From positions 434,001 through 498,000 of the forward strand of contig NZ_LZYB01000003.1 of assembly GCF_001677335.1 (NCBI RefSeq): a stretch of 64,000 nucleotides of DNA, read 5' to 3'. Under the pieces are notes generated by a model, which worked only from the letters and a program-made list of their open reading frames with translations, did not search any database and was not told where the DNA came from. Origin of the DNA: Erythrobacter dokdonensis DSW-74. GTDB taxonomy: Bacteria; Pseudomonadota; Alphaproteobacteria; Sphingomonadales; Sphingomonadaceae. Both the position numbers and the translations under genes were made by a program. Of this stretch, positions 45,142 to 57,219 are shown piece by piece. The stretch's first letter is position 1. Each line of letters opens with the position of its first letter.

Positions 45142-45215
45142 GGCCCGATGGCGGAGTGGTGACGCAGCGGACTGCAAATCCGTATACGCCGGTTCGATTC
45201 CGGCTCGGGCCTCCA
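45142..45215 (+). tRNA. tRNA-Cys (GCA)
   Basis: 74 bases with encoded CCA. The acceptor stem GGCCCGA pairs with TCGGGCC; the anticodon loop reads CTGCAAA with anticodon GCA; the T arm is GCCGGTTCGATTCCGGC. It stands 53 bp before tRNA-Thr. Confidence 0.96.
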
Positions 45216-45268: not shown

Positions 45269-45344
45269 GCCGCTTTAGCTCAGTTGGTAGAGCACATCAT
45301 TCGTAATGATGGGGTCACGTGTTCGAGTCACGTAAGCGGCACCA
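45269..45344 (+). tRNA. tRNA-Thr (CGT)
   Basis: 76 bases with encoded CCA. The acceptor stem GCCGCTT pairs with AAGCGGC; the anticodon stem ATCAT/ATGAT holds the loop TCGTA with anticodon CGT (reads ACG). Its last 48 bases, from 45299, recur at 50309-50356 with two differences. This is the usual sign of a tRNA used as an integration site. Confidence 0.96.
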
Positions 45345-45873
45345 CCTTTTTTCCGCACTTTCCCTTGGAAAATCACGTACTCTCTGCGGAAGGCTTTTGG
45401 GCTTGAAGGTGCGGTTTTGCCTGCTGAAAGGGCGAAACTCACGGCGGACCCAATGAAGAGCCTAGAAGCCCTTTGCTTTGTTGTTTCGATTCATGCGGTT
45501 GAAAGTGCCCTCCGGCTGGTCGCCAACGAGTGCGTCACGTTTGAATTGTCTTAGCACTGGTGAGCTGCATGCCAGATTGCTTCTGAAGTTCGGGGAGGTC
45601 CTTGTCATGTGGGAGCCCGTAAACTCGGCGGGCCCTTCGATGACCTGGGCCGACGCAACGGCAGGGATCGCGAAAACACACTGGGTCGCAACATCCCGCA
45701 AGCAGCTTGAACTTCGTCATTATGCGCCCCTTCGATCACCGACGGCTTGCCGGAAGGGTGGTAAAATCTGATGAGGTTCAGGGTGTCGCAGGGAGCAATC
45801 AGCCGAGGTCCGCTTTGGGCGTCACGCGGAGGTTTCCTGCCCTTCCGCAACCGACCCCATTGCGGACCTGAGT
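45299..45873 (+). repeat. Left copy of the imperfect direct repeat flanking the antenna island
   Basis: Begins in tRNA-Thr and runs about 575 bp. Three blocks match the right copy at 50309-50806: the tRNA part (48 bp, 46 identical), 45416-45438 (23 bp, identical to 50426-50448), and 45683-45755 (about 73 bp with few differences to 50609-50681). Between the blocks the copies are diverged and of different length. No intact gene lies inside; a decayed frame is listed separately. Confidence 0.85.
45462..45720 (-). pseudogene. Frameshifted small secreted-protein gene
   Basis: The minus-strand ATG at 45720 opens MTKFKLLAG, a signal-peptide start. The rest of a plausible protein, FAIPAVASAQVIEGPAEF, is in another frame, so the gene needs a frameshift to give a signal peptide with an ASAQ cleavage site and an end at 45462. 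In the right repeat the same start recurs (ATG near 50647) and stops soon after (MTKFKLLAGCCDP then stop), with a matching tail AFNSMFRK against TFNRMNRN here. Both copies look like relics of one duplicated gene. Confidence 0.5.
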
Positions 45874-45934
45874 TGCGGCATTTATGCCGTTGGCCGACGC
45901 TAGGTGCAAATTATTCAAGGTCGAAAGCTCGGTA

Positions 45935-47347
45935 GTGAATCGGTTTGACAAAAGGCTGATGTCGTTCTGGATGGGCTGGGGCAAGCGGCTGCTGCCGTTT
46001 GCCGATGCCGCCAGTGACGATCTGCCGCTGTCTCGCCTGCTCAGGCTTTCGCTCATCCAGTTTTCGGTCGGAATATCGCTGACCCTTCTGGTCGGCACGC
46101 TCAACCGCGTGATGATCGTCGAGCTTGAAGTGGCCTCGACGATCGTTGGTGTCATGCTCGCCCTGCCGCTGCTGGTTGCCCCGTTTCGTGCGCTGATCGG
46201 CTTCCGTTCCGACACGCATCGTTCGGCGCTGGGCTGGCGCCGGGTGCCCTTTATCTATCGCGGCACCATGATCCAGTTTGGCGGGCTGGCGCTGATGCCC
46301 TTTGCGCTGCTGGTGCTCGGCGGTGCGCTGCAATCGGCGGGCTGGCCTTCATGGATCGGCCAGATAAGCGCGGCGGCGGCAATCCTGCTGGTCGGCGCGG
46401 GCGTGCATATCACGCAGACGGTCGGCCTTGCGCTGGCCACCGATCTGGCGCGCGAGGACCAGCAAGCCAATGTCGTTGGCCTGATGTATGTCAGCCTGCT
46501 GGTGGGATCGATTGTCTCGGCGCTGGCGTTTGGCGCCTTTCTCACCGATTTCACCCCCGGCCGCCTGATTCAGGTGATCCAGGGTTGCGCCGTGATCACC
46601 GTATTCCTGAACCTTGTCGCCACGTGGAAGCAGGAGGCGCTCAATTCGAGTCCCCCGCCAACCGATCCGGCGGCCATGGCCGGCACTTTTCGCCAGAGCT
46701 GGGATACCTTCATCGTCCAGCGTCAGGCGATGCGCCGTCTGATCGTGATCGGCATCGGGACGCTGGCCTTCACCATGTCCGACGTGCTGCTCGAACCCTA
46801 TGGTGGTCAGGCGCTCGGCCTCGGGGTGGGCACGACAACGCGGCTGACCGCGATTCTGGCCGGAGGTAGCCTAGTGGGCTTCACGATCGCATCGCAGATC
46901 CTCAGCCAAGGCGGCAATCCGGTCAGGCTGGCGGGGTCGGGTGCGTTGATGGGCCTGCCCGGCTTTGCGATGATCATTGCCGCAGCGCCGATACAATCGG
47001 CCTCGCTGTTTTCGGTCGGGGTCCTGCTGATCGGCTGCGGTGCCGGCCTGTTCGGCCACGGCACGCTGACCGCCACGATGCGCGATGCGCCCAAGGGGCA
47101 GGTCGGCATGGCGCTGGGGGCATGGGGCGCGGTGCAGGCAACCGCTGCCGGAGCAGGAGCGGCGATTGGCGGGGTGGTGCGCGATATTGCCCGCGGCCTT
47201 GTGATCGTGGAAGGCTGGCCTCCGGTGATCTCCGGCTATGTTCTGGTCTACGTGCTGGAACTGGCCCTGCTGGCGGCGGCGTTGATCATCATGGTGCCGC
47301 TGCTGCATCGCCCGCAGGAACAGGCCGGGCTGGCGCCGCGGGTCTGA
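45935..47347 (+). CDS. pucC: PucC/LhaA-type MFS transporter for photosystem assembly
   Basis: 470 residues from the GTG at 45935 (an ATG at 45959 or 45884 is possible). Twelve membrane helices; the family N-terminus LLPFADAASDDLPLSRLLRLSL is present, and FRALIGFRSDTHRSALGWRRVPF and the motif MRDAPKGQVGMALGAWGAVQA are typical. Such BCD-family proteins deliver bacteriochlorophyll or help assemble light-harvesting complexes. It is convergent with the antenna genes at 47547-47898, with a terminator between. Confidence 0.88.
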   Translation: MNRFDKRLMSFWMGWGKRLLPFADAASDDLPLSRLLRLSLIQFSVGISLTLLVGTLNRVMIVELEVASTIVGVMLALPLLVAPFRALIGFRSDTHRSALGWRRVPFIYRGTMIQFGGLALMPFALLVLGGALQSAGWPSWIGQISAAAAILLVGAGVHITQTVGLALATDLAREDQQANVVGLMYVSLLVGSIVSALAFGAFLTDFTPGRLIQVIQGCAVITVFLNLVATWKQEALNSSPPPTDPAAMAGTFRQSWDTFIVQRQAMRRLIVIGIGTLAFTMSDVLLEPYGGQALGLGVGTTTRLTAILAGGSLVGFTIASQILSQGGNPVRLAGSGALMGLPGFAMIIAAAPIQSASLFSVGVLLIGCGAGLFGHGTLTATMRDAPKGQVGMALGAWGAVQATAAGAGAAIGGVVRDIARGLVIVEGWPPVISGYVLVYVLELALLAAALIIMVPLLHRPQEQAGLAPRV

Positions 47348-47430
47348 GCAATGCCGCCAATGCGCCTGGGGGCGCGCCGGTTGCGCGTTTCCTGGTCGGC
47401 TTCGGCTTCCGGCTGAACTCGTGTCTGCAG

Positions 47431-47468
47431 CAAATAAAGAAAGACCCGGCGCTTGCGGGCCGGGTCTT
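47431..47468 (-). terminator. Rho-independent terminator of the antenna genes
   Basis: AAGACCCGG (47441-47449) pairs with CCGGGTCTT (47460-47468). On the minus strand the stem is followed by TCTTTATTTG. It lies 78 bp beyond the pucA stop and between convergent genes. Confidence 0.78.
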
Positions 47469-47546
47469 CCGTGTTCGGTGGTTTGCACCGCCCTTGCGGG
47501 CTGGATGGCATGTGCAAGCCTCAGGCCCCTGCGGACCTGCGGTTTC

Positions 47547-47729
47547 TTATTCAGCCGGTGCTGCAGCAGCCTCGGCAGTAGCAGCGGCGCCCTGCCAGAA
47601 ATCGCTGAACCACGTGGTGTTCGAAAGGATCGAGTAATGGACCGCGAGCGACGTCAGCACCAGAACGAGGAACATGATCGGAATGATCACATTCGGGCTG
47701 ACATAGAGGAAAATCCTACCTTCTTTCAT
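47547..47729 (-). CDS. pucA: Light-harvesting complex alpha subunit, LH2 type
   Basis: 60-residue antenna polypeptide with one membrane helix. The bacteriochlorophyll ligand is H31 in LAVHYSILSN, and the C-terminal TTWFSDFWQG follows the pattern of LH2 alpha chains. Residues at positions 44-45 are Phe-Trp, where well-studied B850 chains carry Tyr-Trp. An Ala/Glu-rich tail of about 12 residues is appended. A GGGAGG Shine-Dalgarno precedes the ATG. It follows pucB after 13 bp, the usual order. Confidence 0.9.
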   Translation of the reverse strand: MKEGRIFLYVSPNVIIPIMFLVLVLTSLAVHYSILSNTTWFSDFWQGAAATAEAAAAPAE

Positions 47730-47742
47730 CGTCTGGCCTCCC

Positions 47743-47898
47743 TTACTTGAGCCACGGCGTCAAAATGAACGCCAGCACGTGAGCGCCGAGGGCGATGGCG
47801 AAGTAAATCCGCGTCCCCCACTTCAGCCCGTCGTTGATTTCCAGGGCCTGCGCTTCTGTCAGCCCGGTGGGGTAAACCTTCGTATCATCACCTGCCAT
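47743..47898 (-). CDS. pucB: Light-harvesting complex beta subunit, LH2 type
   Basis: 51 residues, too short for most gene finders: MAGDDTKVYPTGLTEAQ, then a membrane helix with the ligand H40 (ALGAHVLAF) and the C-terminus ILTPWLK. These are the marks of LH beta chains. The polar segment near residue 20 reads ALEIND where many beta chains have a second conserved His. AAGGAGGTTCGCC is a strong ribosome binding site before the ATG at 47898. First gene of the pucBA unit. Confidence 0.9.
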   Translation of the reverse strand: MAGDDTKVYPTGLTEAQALEINDGLKWGTRIYFAIALGAHVLAFILTPWLK

Positions 47899-48295
47899 GT
47901 GGCGAACCTCCTTGATCGGTTACGGCATTCGCGGAAACTCGGTAATGACCCCAGCCTTGTTCCCTTGGGATGCAACTAGCGTGGATTTGCAATTTTCCAT
48001 GACCGAATCAGGAAATAGCGAGTACGGCCATAGGCACCAGGTCGGGTGAGCGGCCTAATGCACATTGAATGTTGCATTTTGCAGGGCAAACGTCAACGTT
48101 GTTGAACATATTGCAACGTCAAGAAAAGTTGCCAAGGATCACACCTTCCCAAGCGGTACTGGCCCATCCGGGTCTCTGGCGACACAGAAGCAAGGTGGAG
48201 GTGCGAGAAAAATTTTTTGGCTTGCACCCAACCTCTGTTAGTGTGGCAGCGGGATCGGCAACTTTAGGCTCCTGACCGGAGCGAGGAAGGTTCAT
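47899..48295. promoter_or_regulatory. Divergent control region between pucBA and the DUF2853 gene
   Basis: 397 bp, AT-richer than its surroundings. It contains the palindrome AACGTCAACGTT (48089-48100) and the motif TTGTTG (48099) with GCAACGTCAA (48113-48122). No TGT-N12-ACA site of the PpsR type is seen. TTGGCT and TAGTGT near 48220 might be a plus-strand promoter. The pucBA promoter is not evident. Confidence 0.45.
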
Positions 48296-48817
48296 ATGTC
48301 CAATGAAGCTCCGGCCATCGACTGGGCCGATGACGTCAAACGGTATGTTCCCGGTGCCGATAGCGGCGCGATCGCCGGGATCGTGCACCATGCGATGGTG
48401 GCGCTCAAAACCCGCGAGCCGGCGCTGGTGTCGTTCGGCAATCCGACCGAAACACGCCGCGTGCGCGAGAATTTCTGCAAGAAGACGCTCGGCCTGTCCG
48501 GTCCCGACGCCGAGCTCGACTCCGCCATTGCCGCCGTTGGCCAGCGGATGAGCGACTCCGCCTCGCACCACCGGGTGACGGCATATTACCTTCTTGCCGA
48601 CCATTTCGACAGGCTGGGACAGTTCCGCGCGGCGGCGACGCCACCAGCCGAAGCGGCCCGGCCGCTGACGCCTTGGGCGGCGACCATGTTTGACGGCCCC
48701 CCGCCGGGCACGGCCATCGGCGGCCCCAGCACCGATCTCAGGTTTGCGTCATTGATTGGTCTGGGCGGAGCGGTGCTGGCGCTGATTGCAGCGATTGCCA
48801 GTACTGCTGGTGGCTGA
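48296..48817 (+). CDS. DUF2853 family protein with C-terminal membrane tail
   Basis: 173 residues. Residues 8-108 match DUF2853: DDVKRYVPGADSGAIAGIV, ALVSFGNPTETRRVRENF and HHRVTAYYLLADHFDRLG. The usual protein stops near there. Here a Pro/Ala linker and a hydrophobic helix follow (LIGLGGAVLALIAAIAS), so the product may be membrane-attached. GAGGAAGG precedes the ATG. Function unknown; it is divergent from pucBA and lies inside the island. Confidence 0.75.
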   Translation: MSNEAPAIDWADDVKRYVPGADSGAIAGIVHHAMVALKTREPALVSFGNPTETRRVRENFCKKTLGLSGPDAELDSAIAAVGQRMSDSASHHRVTAYYLLADHFDRLGQFRAAATPPAEAARPLTPWAATMFDGPPPGTAIGGPSTDLRFASLIGLGGAVLALIAAIASTAGG

Positions 48818-49132
48818 CGCTTTGATCGCAAATCGCCGTCGGCACCGACAACGGCCGCAACGGCAGAACGTTCGCACCGACCGCTCCTGACCTCATGGCT
48901 CTGGAGAGAGTGCCGACGCGCGGGCCGCGTTGTGTTTGCTCGGCCTGTGGCGCCGCTCGCGAACCCGCAGACCCGGCGGTAGGTGTGTAGCCACGCTGCC
49001 TGACCGGCCCGCGCGAGGATGCGGCAGCGCCGTGCGGGTGGCAATCCTGCTCACGCGCGGCCGAGCGCTGAACGCAAGAGACCCGTAGGCGTTGCCGGGT
49101 GGACCGAGCGTTACCCATGCGAGTCCGGATTG
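48818..49132. other. Intergenic region, no gene seen
   Basis: 315 bp after the DUF2853 gene. Frames here are short and of mixed composition. I see no promoter or repeat that I can support. It looks like decayed sequence. Confidence 0.4.
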
Positions 49133-49630
49133 GTGCGGGCGCGGGCCTTGGCCAAGCGCCTCGACAACGCCCCGCTCGCCATCTTCGACAGCCTCGACAA
49201 AGTCCTGCCTTGGAAGGTGCTCGACACTTATGTGAGTCCGCCGGCCTCAGCCGATGGACTCGATCCGGATCCGGTGGCCAATCTCGAGCCTCGGTTGCGA
49301 AATCTCGAATGCGACAAGCCCCACAAGCCCGGCGGGCAAATCGACGCGGTCTATGGCGATCCGCTGAAAAAAGGGCACATCCTACTGTTCCAGCCTGCCT
49401 CAGACACAGCGAATGGGTGGATCTGTGGCGACCTTGGGCTAGTTTATGTCTCGATCGATGCTGCGGACACGGAAGCTGGGAACTTTGACAGGGTCACAGC
49501 TTGGCTGGAGGCGTGGCGGGCGGTTCGCGAAGCAGACATTCCGGTATCCACCCAATTGCAGTCATGGGCCGCGGGTCCGCGTGATCCTGAATCCTGCGTG
49601 TCGCCTTCGGTCGTGATTTCGTCGAGTTAG
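49133..49630 (+). CDS. Hypothetical protein, weakly DUF1963-like, possibly a remnant
   Basis: The frame gives about 165 residues from the GTG at 49133 (upstream extension to 49019 unsupported). The segment CDKPHKPGGQID resembles the H-x-x-GG region of DUF1963 proteins, and the stretch WICGDLGLVYVSIDAADTEAGNFDRV resembles their C-terminal part, while their N-terminal part is absent. It may be a truncated copy. No signal peptide. Codon use appears coding. Low certainty on family. Confidence 0.45.
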   Translation: MRARALAKRLDNAPLAIFDSLDKVLPWKVLDTYVSPPASADGLDPDPVANLEPRLRNLECDKPHKPGGQIDAVYGDPLKKGHILLFQPASDTANGWICGDLGLVYVSIDAADTEAGNFDRVTAWLEAWRAVREADIPVSTQLQSWAAGPRDPESCVSPSVVISSS

Positions 49631-49747
49631 AAACTCTCAAGCGACGCCCATCGCGAGGCTCCGGTTATAGCTTCGCTCTTCTCAAGCTGCCTTGTTCACG
49701 CTCGCGTCGTTGCGCTAGGCTGACCGCATTGGAAGGGAGATCACGCC

Positions 49748-50086
49748 GTGCTCAAACGATCGCTTGTTCTTGTTTGCCCGCTCCTGGTTGGAGCTTGCGT
49801 CACCGATCGCGCCCCGGACAATCTTTCAGAGAGCGCGACGAAGGGCAGGGCCTTTGCACAGGCGAACTGCGCCTCCTGTCACGCTCTCGATGACAGCATC
49901 TCTCCCCTTCCGGATGCGCCCAGTCTTCGCCGCGCCGCCAACCGCTTGCCGGCCTGGGCGGTCGCCGGGTCTTTCGAACGCGGAGTGCAAGTCGGCCATA
50001 CGATGCAGATGCCGGCTTTCGTGTTTGAAAAGGACGATGTCGCCAATCTGCTGGCCTACTTCGAGGCGCTCAAGACAAGGGACTGA
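49748..50086 (+). CDS. Lipoprotein c-type cytochrome
   Basis: 112 residues from the GTG at 49748, preceded by GGAAGGGAGA. Signal peptide with lipobox LLVGAC (Cys 17). The haem motif CASCH is at residues 42-46, and MQMP near 88 offers the axial methionine. A class I cytochrome c held at the periplasmic face by a lipid anchor. It may pass electrons to or from a membrane complex. It is the last intact gene before the right repeat. Confidence 0.8.
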   Translation: MLKRSLVLVCPLLVGACVTDRAPDNLSESATKGRAFAQANCASCHALDDSISPLPDAPSLRRAANRLPAWAVAGSFERGVQVGHTMQMPAFVFEKDDVANLLAYFEALKTRD

Positions 50087-50308
50087 GGGGCGTACCTCCC
50101 ACCTGCCGCCTACCCAATACCAGCCGCTCTCGGAGGTCTGGCGGAGGTCGCATTTCGAAGCCGCATTGAAGTTATGCGTCTTCAGCAGCCAATACTCCGA
50201 AAGCGTCGCGAACGCACTTTGGGTTGTCCGTGGGGCGAAGGAAAAGTGGGAGCCCGAATTGAAGTTAGTCGATTGAGTTATATGGATTAAAAGCACTCCA
50301 TCCACTAA
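50087..50308. other. Intergenic region before the right repeat
   Basis: 222 bp. A frame through 50276 (ending KWEPELKLVD) may be the tail of a lost gene but has no start. Nothing else is supported. Confidence 0.35.
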
Positions 50309-50806
50309 ATTCGTAATGATGGGGTCACGTGTTCAAGGCACGTAAGCGGCACCACCTTCCTTAAGGCACTTTCCCAAGCAAAATCATCGGTAAGCTGCCG
50401 AAGGACAATTGCCGCGTTGAGCAGTGTTTGCCTGCTGAAAGGGCGAAACCCAGCCTCGACCCGGTGAATTAGCCAAAGGGCGTTCGCCTTCTATTTGCGA
50501 AACATGCTGTTGAAGGCGCGTTCGGCTGGTTCCGCTGCATCGATAAGGTTTCGCCTGCACCAGCCGCCGAGGTGGGGGTGCACTTAGGTCGTTCTCGAGA
50601 AACCTCATGGGTCGCAACAGCCTGCAAGCAGCTTGAACTTCGTCATTATGCGCCCCTTCCATCACCGACGGCTTGCCGGAACGACGTTGAAATCCGATGA
50701 GGTTCAGGGTGTTGCGAAGGGCAATCAGCCAAGGTCCGCTTTGAGCTGGTCGCGAAAGTTTCCTGACGTTCAGAAACCGACCCCAAACCGGACCTTGTTA
50801 CAACTC
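50309..50806 (+). repeat. Right copy of the imperfect direct repeat flanking the antenna island
   Basis: Starts with the 48-bp copy of the tRNA-Thr 3' part (50309-50356), then blocks at 50426-50448 and 50609-50681. The tRNA part lacks the D arm and 5' half, so it is not a functional tRNA. Together with 45299-45873 it brackets a 5-kb segment. The decayed small gene MTKFKLLAG is present here too. Confidence 0.85.
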
Positions 50807-50879: not shown

Positions 50880-52010
50880 TCAGGCCCAAAGTTCCTGCGC
50901 CAGTTCGGGAAGGGCCGAAGCATAGCGGGAGACATCCTCCATTCTGCCCGTGCTCACGCGAGAATAGCCGGACCAAGACCCATAAGCTCCCCTGATCGCG
51001 ATGCCGCGTTCGGCCATTGCATCGCGCAAGCTATTGGCATCGGGCACTTTAACGAAAACAAAATTGGTCTGCGATGGCAGCGCGGTCAATCCGGCCTTGC
51101 CGACGGCATCGAGGATCATCGCGCGCCCTTCCAAGACCGCCGAGCGAGACTGGTCGAGAAACGGAGTGTCATCATAGCTGGCAATCGCTGCCGCCAATCC
51201 GGCGATATTGCCGCCGAAGCTCATCATATGCGACTGGATGCGCCGGGCATTGGCCTCGCTTGTGATGGCATAGCCGACCCGGAGCCCCGCCATGCCGTAG
51301 ATCTTCGAGAATGTGCGGCATACGATCACATCGGCGCCGCTGCGAACAAGATCGATCATCGAGCTGTCTTCGGGCCGGTCGGTCAGTTCGTTATAGGCTT
51401 CGTCGACCAGCAGGGTAGCCTGCGGCGTCACCTTTGCGGCAAAGCTGCGCAGCGCATCTGGCGGAATCAGCATGCCCGTAGGATTGTTGGGGTTGCAAAT
51501 CTGCACCAGAGCCACCCCGTCTCCAATCCTGGCTGCCATGGCGGACAAATCGACGCTCATATCCTCTGCCAGTGGCACGCGGATTGAAGATACGCCCTGT
51601 CGCTCGCCGTATAGCACCGTCGTGTCCCAGAACAGATCCGGGCAAAGGATCGCTCCCTCGCGTCCCCAGGCGAGTGAAATGGCGCATAGTATCTCGGTCG
51701 ATCCTTCGCCTACCACGACCTGCGTGGGCATGACCCCGTGCCGCTCGGCAATCATCGCGGCCAGACGCTGAAGACCGCGGTCCGCATAATAGCAGCCCAT
51801 CTTCGCGGTTTCGGCAATCGCGCGCAGCGCTGAGGGTGCCGGGCCGTAAGGGTTTTCATTGCGGCTGAGCAGAGCCTGCCCGGCCTTCGGCCCGAAATGG
51901 GGCACGGCAGCAGCGCCTGTCACCGTCGAACCCAGTCCGGAAAAGGGGATGGTTCCAAGGCCGCCGGCCAAACCGGCACCGGCAAGAAACGATCGGCGAT
52001 TGGTCGGCAT
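50880..52010 (-). CDS. Tat-exported class I/II aminotransferase, histidinol-phosphate type fold
   Basis: 376 residues. The start at 52010 gives a twin-arginine signal, NRRSFLAGAGLAGG, with a hydrophobic core. The rest is a PLP-dependent fold type I enzyme: NENPYGPAPSALRA, GEGSTEILCA, NPNNPTGMLIP, and the PLP lysine in RTFSKIYGMAGLRVGY. It is closest to HisC/CobD-type aminotransferases. Export of such an enzyme is unusual. It is 34 bp downstream of the TSUP gene on the same strand. Confidence 0.85.
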   Translation of the reverse strand: MPTNRRSFLAGAGLAGGLGTIPFSGLGSTVTGAAAVPHFGPKAGQALLSRNENPYGPAPSALRAIAETAKMGCYYADRGLQRLAAMIAERHGVMPTQVVVGEGSTEILCAISLAWGREGAILCPDLFWDTTVLYGERQGVSSIRVPLAEDMSVDLSAMAARIGDGVALVQICNPNNPTGMLIPPDALRSFAAKVTPQATLLVDEAYNELTDRPEDSSMIDLVRSGADVIVCRTFSKIYGMAGLRVGYAITSEANARRIQSHMMSFGGNIAGLAAAIASYDDTPFLDQSRSAVLEGRAMILDAVGKAGLTALPSQTNFVFVKVPDANSLRDAMAERGIAIRGAYGSWSGYSRVSTGRMEDVSRYASALPELAQELWA

Positions 52011-52044
52011 CGAAAAGACTCCTTCAAAGCAGGTAGGCAAGGTT

Positions 52045-52863
52045 TCAGAACTTGGTGATCATCAACACACCGATGAAGGTCAGGTACAGGCCGAAGACCC
52101 GGCGCAGAACCGCTGGTGAAAGCGCATGCGCAGCTGCGACGCCAAGCGGCGCGAACAGCACTGAAGTCCCGATCAGCACGATCGCTGTGGGCAGGTTGAC
52201 AAAGCCCAGTGCCCCCCAACCAAGCCCGCTTTCGCCAAGCCCGATCAGTATGAAACCGATGGTCGCCGGGATCGCGATCACCGCGCCCATCCCCGCTGCA
52301 GTGCCGATGGCACGGTGGATCGGAGTCCCGCAGACGGTCATCGTCAAAGTGGTCAGGGTGCCGCCCCCTATACCCAGCAGGGTCGAAAATGCCCCCAGCG
52401 CACTGGCGATCCCCGCACGCGGCAAGCCCGAAGGCAGAGCGGCAAAGAGCGGCGCTCCCTGACGTGCAGGCAGCAGGAAATAGACCGCAAAGGCAAGCAC
52501 CCCGGTTCCGAAGATCAAGGCGAGTAGCGCGCCCGACATAAGATCCGCAAAGATGGTCCCGACACCAGTCCCCAACACCACCCAGATTGCCCAGCCCTTG
52601 AGCAAGTCGAAATCGACTGATCCACGACGCGCGTGGCTGCTGGTCGAACGGATCGAAGTGAAAATGATCGAAGCGAGCGACGTGCCGACTGCGACATGTG
52701 CGGTCTGATCCGGAGCCACACCCACCAGGGGCAACAGAAACATGAGCGCCGGCACAACCACAAATCCCCCGCCAATGCCGAACAGGCCACCAGCAAAGCC
52801 GGCAGCTGCACCGGCAAGCAGAAGTGCCGGAAGTGCAAAGGCGAATGAAGCGGTCAGACTCAT
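52045..52863 (-). CDS. TauE/SafE (TSUP) family permease
   Basis: 272 residues with about eight membrane helices and the duplicated glycine motif: GFAGGLFGIGGGFVVVP near residue 20 and ASALGAFSTLLGIGGGTLTT near 150. Such proteins transport sulfite, sulfonates or sulfoacetate. The ATG at 52863 is chosen over a start 12 codons upstream. It probably shares a transcript with the exported aminotransferase. Paralogue of the gene at 39906. Confidence 0.87.
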   Translation of the reverse strand: MSLTASFAFALPALLLAGAAAGFAGGLFGIGGGFVVVPALMFLLPLVGVAPDQTAHVAVGTSLASIIFTSIRSTSSHARRGSVDFDLLKGWAIWVVLGTGVGTIFADLMSGALLALIFGTGVLAFAVYFLLPARQGAPLFAALPSGLPRAGIASALGAFSTLLGIGGGTLTTLTMTVCGTPIHRAIGTAAGMGAVIAIPATIGFILIGLGESGLGWGALGFVNLPTAIVLIGTSVLFAPLGVAAAHALSPAVLRRVFGLYLTFIGVLMITKF

Positions 52864-56310: not shown

Positions 56311-56587
56311 TACGCCATCTCCAGATACGCACTTGTTGGATGGCGGCTCGAGGGAGGTCTGTAAATCACACGCCCGGACTTTGACACGCAGGCGGCTCCA
56401 TTAACTTCCTTAACCCGAACAGTCTGCGAATGCAGCGCTGGCAATCGCCAGAGACGCCCTCGATATGCCGCTCAGCAGAATGCGCTGAAACATTGTTGCA
56501 GGCAATCGATAGCAACGTCAAAAAGCCGTCAATTCGCAATTGCGTTGCGCCGCGCGATCTGAATGGCAGAAATCCACCCATCCGCAT
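56311..56587. other. Intergenic region upstream of the MFS gene
   Basis: 277 bp with TTGTTG at 56493 and GCAACGTCAA at 56512-56521, the same two words as in the pucBA control region but at 13 instead of 8 bp. No gene is seen. Confidence 0.4.
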
Positions 56588-57219
56588 TCATGCGTCGCGG
56601 CTCCGCGAGATTCGGAAACCTGCACCCGGATAGGCGAGGCCCATTATCCCCGCGCCGACCAGCGACAGACTGATCAGAAGGGCGAACACCGTCCACGGCA
56701 GTTTTGCGCGCATATTGGCCTCACGCTGCACGCCGAGATCGAGGACCGCGTTGACGCCAGCGATGGTCGATGCGCCAAGCGGCGTGTTCGCAACCGGCTG
56801 GAGGCGCGAGCCGGCCGCAACTGCTGCGCCTGTGCCTCGAGCGCATCGCGTCCGGTTTCGATTGCGCTGCCATAAGTTGTGCGATGGCGGGTGTAGTCCT
56901 CTATCGCCCTTTGCAGGTCTGATGTCGTCTCACCCAGAAAAGACGCGCGGTAATGGGCTGTGCCAAGAGCATTGGCTTCTGCGACCACATCGCTTCGGCG
57001 GGTCTCGTAGCGATCTAGCGCCATACTGAAGCTGAAGCCGACAAGCAGGGCAAGCAGGCCGAAGATGCTGGTCAGTATGTGGCCGATCCGGTCGTGGCTC
57101 AGGCTGCCGAGGGCATCCTCAGTGGGCATTCTTGTGGCAATACTGCGTCCGAGTGTCTCCGCGCCGAGGAGGGCCAGCACGAAAAGCACGGTCATGGTCG
57201 CCAGCGTGAAATCGATCAT
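56588..57219 (-). pseudogene. Frameshifted DUF4239-like (bestrophin-like) membrane protein
   Basis: The N-terminal part (MIDFTLATMTVLFVLALL, then GHILTSIFGLLALLVGFSFSMALDRYETRR and ANALGTAHYRASFL) matches DUF4239 proteins. After EAQAQQL near 56830 the frame drifts, but a second frame continues with TPLGASTIAGVNAVLDL, a membrane segment (WTVFALLISLSLVGAGIMG) and a stop at 56588. One base gained or lost near 56800-56830 explains this. A sequencing error is possible. Confidence 0.7.

Follow-up and report, generated by a model that had tools for sequence, protein, structure and literature searches.

Genomic islands at tRNA genes have been defined by an intact tRNA gene, a displaced fragment of it and an integrase (PMC4383910; this and the other papers named below are cited for the parts of them that were available to us). 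The nearest precedent for the locus described here is provided by the ssrA genomic islands of Dehalococcoides, which stand in tandem at one RNA gene, each closing with a copy of that gene's 3' end, and carry metabolic cargo; 16 of them have an integration module and 15 have none, and the authors suggested that the latter are cis-mobilizable (PMC3146451). In 14 Erythrobacter genomes, integrative and conjugative elements were described at tRNA-Leu, tRNA-Met and tRNA-Val and a prophage at tRNA-Tyr, and the same paper repeats from earlier work that no genes for light-harvesting complex 2 (LH2) were found in the Erythrobacter clade (PMC4919336). We analyzed a stretch of 64,000 nucleotides from Erythrobacter dokdonensis DSW-74 (contig NZ_LZYB01000003.1, positions 434,001 to 498,000; hereafter the window, in whose numbering positions are given), where LH2-type antenna genes lie between a tRNA-Thr(CGT) gene and a displaced copy of its 3' half. 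We consider it quite probable that this interval is an integrase-less module of a tRNA-Thr(CGT) element family with arm-type sites, and that its cargo, an LH2-type cassette, itself spread between species. Among the open-licence papers listed by our searches, none deals with an antenna at tRNA-Thr, as judged by titles and the beginnings of abstracts.

Measured against the tRNA genomic island, the window module has both brackets, the intact tRNA-Thr and the displaced 3' fragment, but no integrase between them. Its family is like the ssrA islands in tandem arrangement, 3'-end copies and metabolic cargo, and differs from them in using a tyrosine integrase with arm sites, tRNA-Thr, and antenna and other cargo, whereas the ssrA islands have a serine-recombinase pair and tmRNA (PMC3146451). 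Cis-mobilizable elements (CIMEs, a term found in the same paper) likewise keep their attachment (att) sites, have no integrase and may have tandem neighbours. In the window module, attL and attR were found without an integrase, the left arm pair being degenerate, and core and right-arm motif are shared with an integrase-bearing relative (G048; G, C and L numbers are our handles for genomes, contigs and loci, and G000 is the window's genome) and with other genera. The autonomous relatives here differ from those of CIMEs in carrying an integrase together with a VapE-like protein, and mobilization is something that we infer for this family. The modules also recall integron cassettes and clusters of attC sites lacking integron-integrases (CALIN), which are integrase-less cargo units that rely on an enzyme from elsewhere (PMC11389934). 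Unlike integron cassettes, however, the family uses the tRNA-Thr 3' half with arm sites, and its modules hold whole operons. Tycheposons, which are tRNA-bounded elements with metabolic cargo in marine bacteria, resemble the window module by description only.

The bracket is made up of the following features:

45142-45215, plus strand: tRNA-Cys(GCA), found by ARAGORN, the upstream neighbour of the target tRNA
45269-45344, plus strand: tRNA-Thr(CGT), found by ARAGORN, the intact target gene, in tandem with tRNA-Cys
from 45299 (anticodon loop): putative left att-site core, the 3' half of tRNA-Thr
45345-45840, plus strand: left arm of the module
50214-50239, plus strand: paired arm-type motif TTTGGGT...GTGGGGC at the right end, about 95 bp before the fragment
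50309-50358, plus strand: displaced tRNA-Thr 3' fragment with 2 mismatches, the putative right att-site core
50359-50806, plus strand: second left arm, with a weak arm-type pair at +213

The first-pass annotation of this DNA had reported a tRNA-Thr 3' repeat with 46 of 48 identical positions and a spacing of 5,010 bp, and count and spacing proved correct; the full repeat comprises 50 nt (45299-45348 and 50309-50358), of which 48 (96%) are identical at a spacing of 5010. A 43-nt core, searched at up to 3 mismatches, occurred twice in the window's genome with no third copy, and the reversed core pattern, which served as a control, gave no match across 114 genomes of the genus, which excludes a chance origin of the repeat. 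Beyond what had been noticed before, similarity continues piecewise past the tRNA for ~500 bp behind both copies, to about 45869 and 50795, and includes a 188-nt stretch at 85% identity, a 222-bp piece at 74% and a 202-bp piece at 84%. No further copy of this extended homology was found in the genome, and the first ~180 bp of the left arm are conserved behind tRNA-Thr or its fragments in several other genomes. We read the arm at 50359-50806 as belonging to an older neighbouring module.

In many genomes, alignment of the sequence preceding the fragments revealed a TTGGGT-like repeat pair that begins ~95 and ends ~75 nt before the core. A matrix was built from 16 right ends of 8 genomes, picked by eye, and each genome was left out in turn. 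With its own genome left out, the window's right-arm motif scored 26.2 bits at offset 0 from the family position, and the next best of ~128,000 window positions on both strands scored 13.3 bits. With the matrix of all 16 ends, fragments of other genera were preceded by sites of at least 9 bits within 1 nt of that offset, namely in G402 (4 of 5 fragments, leaving out one row with no right arm that is probably the intact tRNA), G237, G396 (2), G398, G231, G309, G332 and G333, and by weaker ones in G346 (5.6 bits) and G294 (2.7 bits). Left arms carry the same motif pair, at +221 in one group and at +66 in another, and the arm after the window fragment keeps a weak pair of 8.0 bits. These motif scans show the tRNA-Thr fragment to be an attachment site as far as this can be predicted, and the earlier proposal that the bracket is a pair of integrase att sites gained support from the right-arm motif at the family offset and from the core repeat. 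In L057 and L111, another repeated arm pair (CTATACAACA) accompanies the fragments. Near 2002285 (L149), ~0.58-0.59 Mb away from its array, G011 has a further tRNA-Thr fragment that carries both arm motifs and may represent a moved element.

An integrase that belongs to such sites was found in other genomes. G048 has two successive intervals of 37 and 21.5 kb, both closed by right arms of this kind, and each contains a similar small-gene block, a VapE-like protein, a tyrosine integrase and a 90-aa gene; the integrase that was scanned matched PF13356 (arm-binding domain) and PF00589, and the preceding scanned gene, VapE-like, matched PF05272. Within the genus, close relatives of this integrase (42-100% identity, the next best match being 30%) occur 7 times in 6 of the 114 genomes, and all seven lie 3-58 kb downstream of a tRNA-Thr copy. 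At the family level, 22 of 298 genomes gave an integrase match at 1e-60. When 30 integrase places were tested, 26 shared their contig with a tRNA-Thr core no more than 45 kb away (a limit of our own choice), and 16 lay inside a closed interval; 3 of the 27 family integrase rows (G229, G263, G363) were left out of this test. The clearest array, in G402, has six cores and five intervals, and its four integrases are placed exactly one each in four of the five. The clade matched phage records (best 8 of 813) at no more than 27% identity and plasmid records (best 8 of 2838) at no more than 40%, all below 60%; one viral contig matched at 25%.

The window's genome itself contains no close relative of this integrase clade, and the window interval gave neither a Pfam tyrosine-integrase match nor a recombinase by comparison with the enzymes of relatives, as the first-pass annotation had also noted. 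Twelve intervals in 8 genomes (G000, G016, two in G022, G073, four in G011, G109, the first of G002, and G076) had no integrase or recombinase by the comparison with relatives' recombinases, a comparison of incomplete sensitivity that missed a Pfam match in G081; a Pfam integrase search found none in the same intervals of the 7 genomes that it covered (G073 lay outside it). Ten of the twelve close with a matching right arm, and those of G002 and the second of G022 do not; the last G011 interval was cut by the locus end, that of G076 was read over a 16.7-kb part, and one of the G011 intervals has no called gene. As judged by eye from translations, the cargo includes phosphonate-type genes (G022), ethanolamine-type genes with a catalase-peroxidase (G073) and a Rieske dioxygenase (G011). 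Intervals of other element types have an integrase in G085 and in the first interval of G048, a weak one in G050 and a recombinase-like gene in G024. No integrase or recombinase was seen in the G020 interval, and that of G081 has the Pfam integrase match just mentioned (C53:42450-42971) and none by the recombinase comparison.

A query of tRNA-Cys and tRNA-Thr matched 112 of the 114 genus genomes, at least in part. A look for empty sites and other cargo at this tRNA had been suggested as a check: in the 49 mapped loci with an intact tRNA-Thr (the window included) downstream content differs almost genome by genome, and in G008 an ArsR-metF-type flank (named by eye) directly adjoins the tRNA, which we interpret as an empty site. 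This flank is found past the island in G078, G083 and G086, and in G048 it directly follows the last fragment. Displaced tRNA-Thr fragments were present in 9 of 40 loci (L038-L077). A gene of one tyrosine-integrase cluster directly follows the tRNA in 8 of the 49 loci, and in five (L053, L060, L061, L075, L077) a large serine recombinase lies near tRNA-Thr, adjoining it in four; Pfam was scanned for one member per cluster, and the serine recombinase scanned, in L061, matched PF00239 and PF07508. Unrelated recombinases thus seem to use one tRNA-Thr site. Three loci (L057, L099, L111) have a recombinase-like gene of 445 aa between tRNA-Cys and tRNA-Thr (415 aa in L057, by the gene caller). After the window fragment lie an aminotransferase and a TauE-like permease (by eye, 50880-52863); in E. 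ramosus (L104) this pair lies upstream of the tRNA on the opposite strand, and the difference in position suggests an inversion with a breakpoint at the tRNA-Thr locus.

In the explanation that we favour, the DNA from tRNA-Thr to the fragment at 50309 would be a module, integrated at this tRNA, that belongs to an element family specific for tRNA-Thr(CGT). The att sites of the family would have paired TTGGGTC-type arm sites on either side of the core, and its autonomous members elsewhere carry a tyrosine integrase with an arm-binding domain and a VapE-like protein. Since it has att sites and cargo and no integrase, the window module would be a non-autonomous, cis-mobilizable-like derivative, which could have moved in the past only if an integrase acted in trans or if it was excised together with a neighbour; mobilization in trans is presumed. 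Its left arm looks decayed, and for this reason the module is probably fixed now.

Several observations weigh against this explanation. The left-arm pair of the window module, expected near 45566-45591, is degenerate (1.1 bits), so that the module is assigned to the family by its core, its right arm and a similarity of ~180 bp in its left arm. The matrix was built on right ends selected by eye, and eight other fragments that were scored do not have the motif (G024, G081, G085, G020, G050, the first of G048, the first of G002 and the third of G022). Among the integrases, one in G397 (39% identity) lies 1.7 Mb from a core, no core was found on the integrase contigs of G196 (36%) and of two G313 places, that of G144 (C36:8124-15631) is upstream rather than downstream of the intact tRNA-Thr, and that of G283 (C1:2614561-2634876) is on the upstream side of the core, in contrast to most of the other genomes tested. 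Furthermore, the cassette of G086 sits at the same tRNA with a different left arm of ~370 bp and no fragment; the first-pass annotation had named as speaking against it the case that all relatives have the same genes in the same place and no second tRNA copy, which holds for one relative, G086, where no second copy was found, and not for those with the genes elsewhere. The cassette also occurs at sites with no tRNA-Thr, so that the tRNA module need not be the carrier between cells, and excision and transfer of the module are events that we infer.

The interval between the two cores contains these genes:

about 45841-49570, plus strand: antenna cassette, a block conserved at several chromosomal sites
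45884-47347, plus strand: pucC-type transporter (PF03209), with an alternative start at 45971
47547-47729, minus strand: LH2-type antenna alpha subunit (PF00556); best solved relative 9lt4 chain A, named B-800/814 alpha
47743-47898, minus strand: LH2-type antenna beta subunit (PF00556); best solved relative 9lt4 chain i
48296-48817, plus strand: DUF2853 protein (PF11015)
49133-49630, plus strand: DUF1963-like protein
49748-50086, plus strand: small cytochrome c with a possible lipobox, seen by eye

Pfam bore out the cargo named in the first-pass annotation (PUCC, two minus-strand LHC subunits, DUF2853 and cytochrome c), to which the DUF1963-like gene is added here. The DUF2853 gene accompanies the cassette in 8 mapped loci, the window included, and the DUF1963-like gene does so in G017 and partly in G021 and G070; the cytochrome c gene had no DNA match in the other cassette loci that were compared. 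Against solved chains, alpha matched 9lt4 at 5.9e-24 and the best chain named for light-harvesting complex 1 (LH1) at 0.033, and beta matched 9lt4 at 2.3e-29 and the best LH1-named chain at 2.6e-4. In the printed alignment of beta with 9lt4 (B-800-850 beta), 47 of 51 residues are identical, and alpha is strongly similar; in NCBIfam, beta matched a single model, that for LH1 beta, with a score that did not reach the cut-off. The window's genome has its own LH1-type pair on a separate contig, C6. Where the beta of this resident LH1 has EIHK, the antenna beta and the 9lt4 beta have EIND, and because of this replacement the first histidine of beta is missing there. By sequence the antenna is of LH2 type, like the 9lt4 structure, and it would serve as an accessory, probably blue-shifted peripheral antenna that feeds the resident LH1-reaction centre. 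For E. ramosus (as Erythromicrobium ramosum), a cassette carrier, peripheral bands at 832 and 798 nm have been reported (PMC12654162), and these may be made by this cassette. The first-pass annotation took it as a premise that aerobic anoxygenic phototrophs normally keep antenna genes in one photosynthesis cluster, for which we find no support; a 2025 review places LH2 genes, when present, outside that cluster, as in most other proteobacterial phototrophs (PMC12654162).

The cassette (pucC, pucBA, DUF2853, DUF1963) was found in 10 of the 114 genus genomes (pucC at 80% or more), including E. ramosus and E. sanguineus, at several unrelated sites. Three genomes (G000, G085, G086) have it at tRNA-Thr. 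In G022 it follows tRNA-Met at the start of a contig, G021 and G075 have it next to genes that look by eye like recG and mfd, the G030 cassette, which is of an older type, is close to the photosynthesis cluster, and those of G017 and G070 are at other sites; in G053 it is on a 3.6-kb contig of a metagenome-assembled genome with 5% contamination. A second copy of the tRNA-Met 3' end was sought in G022, and none was found within 15 kb. E. sanguineus DSM 11032 (G021) has, elsewhere, a second, broken cassette (L097 9867-13232) with gaps in pucC and, as judged by eye, a piece resembling a transposase next to it. Between tRNA-Thr and the antenna genes of G085 lies an element of 13.7 kb (L048 3175-16837), which has an arm-domain integrase of its own and leaves a tRNA-Thr fragment in front of pucC; G085 and G086 form a filled/empty pair, G086 being a closely related site that does not have the element. 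The mobile antenna unit is not identical with the bracket, as had been thought, but is the block at ~45841-49570, which occurs at several sites with no tRNA-Thr core. The locus comprises two nested layers of mobility, since the cassette has ends of its own and is contained in the tRNA-Thr module, and either the tRNA-Thr system or recombination at the cassette's own ends may have moved it. Candidate plasmid carriers were discarded, since 11 plasmid records all matched the antenna query at less than 60% identity and none covered 80% of it.

The left end of the cassette lies near 45841 in five unrelated surroundings, and its right end lies near 49554-49565 where G000 was matched with G017, with G070 and with the broken copy in G021. 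A dispersed intergenic repeat of the genus (like CTGCCATTCAGCAAACGACCCCATTGCGGAC) occurs in the window at 45837, 50763 and 53105, the first copy coinciding with the cassette left end; in 1.37 Mb it gave 21 matches against 0 for the reversed control. The position of the left end in this repeat is a lead only. A 52-bp stretch at 49546-49597, at the cassette right end, is repeated at 56572-56623 with 79% identity.

Divergence of the cassette was compared with that of rpoB and of lhaA, the paralogue in the photosynthesis cluster, in pairs of G000, G086, G022, G017 and G070. Identities in the same pairs were 92-97% for pucC, 89-93% for rpoB and 77-85% for lhaA, and divergence at 4-fold sites was 0.06-0.17, 0.20-0.30 and 0.32-0.48, respectively; pair by pair, pucC was 1.7-3.7 times below rpoB (the smaller factors being those of G000 pairs) and 2.7-7.3 times below lhaA. 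Against G030, pucC (0.35-0.40) and lhaA (0.38-0.47) are diverged about alike, so that pucC can diverge as far as lhaA. Because the cassette is less diverged than rpoB and lhaA, it would have moved between species, and we regard these comparisons as showing, on sequence grounds, that it spread between Erythrobacter species by horizontal transfer, in agreement with the acquisition first proposed. The broken G021 pucC (C5) was included in the pucC tree and stands outside the identity tables; the rpoB comparison covers the genomes other than G075 and G073, from which no rpoB was obtained. In the rpoB tree the carriers are scattered, and well-supported branches force at least 4 changes. Base composition, named earlier as a check, did not set the whole cassette apart; AT-richer sequence was seen only at the arms and at ~47.5-48.5 kb.

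These divergences bear on the view that the antenna is ancestral at tRNA-Thr and was inherited vertically, with losses elsewhere. It is true that G000, G085 and G086 share the site, that G000 branches early both within its group in the pucC tree and, among carriers except G053, in the rpoB tree, and that the carriers cluster in the latter tree more strongly than shuffled labels do (5 changes against a mean of 7.8, with 11 of 500 shuffles as low). Nevertheless, similarity within the same pairs is higher for pucC than for rpoB and much higher than for lhaA, at 4-fold sites as well, and rpoB groups G030 with G085 and G086, yet the G030 pucC is only 79% alike. Vertical inheritance of the cassette, which the first-pass annotation had named as the outcome that would speak against acquisition, is contradicted by these data; we reject it on 4-fold-site divergence and hold it to be very unlikely. 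Still less credible is that the fragment arose by segmental duplication of the tRNA 3' end with its downstream DNA and is not an att site: homology does run ~500 bp beyond the tRNA on both sides, but the arms differ from each other by 16-26%, the cargo between these sites is not the same in other genomes, and the right-arm motif, common to distant genomes at a fixed distance from the fragment, strongly disfavours such a duplication, which we reject.

A more serious alternative, to which we give somewhat less than an even chance, is that the cassette moves by its own means, through short dispersed repeats and homologous recombination, and landed in an old, dead tRNA-Thr module, so that the bracket would be irrelevant to its spread. 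The constancy of its left end in five unrelated surroundings and of its right end in four argues for this, as do the dispersed repeat at the left end and the six of ten carriers located elsewhere (G017, G021, G022, G030, G070, G075; the G053 contig is too short to tell). On the other hand, by plain count three carriers have the cassette directly after tRNA-Thr (G000, G086) or its fragment (G085), and one has it beside tRNA-Met. Moreover, the older-type copies share part of the left-end motif, and in four carriers (G022, G053, G085, G086) the match stops earlier on the right, at 48892-49011, for which reasons the apparent ends may be limits of conservation rather than ends of a mobile unit.

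If the module reading is extended to the family, tRNA-Thr(CGT) may act as a loading dock, where the integrase clade with TTGGGTC arms also moves integrase-less modules of arms and core and so exchanges whole operons, as integrons do; we offer this as a tentative and rather doubtful idea. If it is true, the dock would resemble an integron built from a phage-type integrase, and the swappable operons would be the LH2 antenna and, as named by eye, those for phosphonate use, ethanolamine use, catalase-peroxidase and dioxygenase. The antenna module itself provides aerobic phototrophs with a concrete route for passing light-harvesting capacity between them apart from the photosynthesis cluster, and with the att sites and a candidate integrase clade now named, such a route is directly testable. 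Arm-type sites can also expose integrase-less modules that integrase searches overlook.

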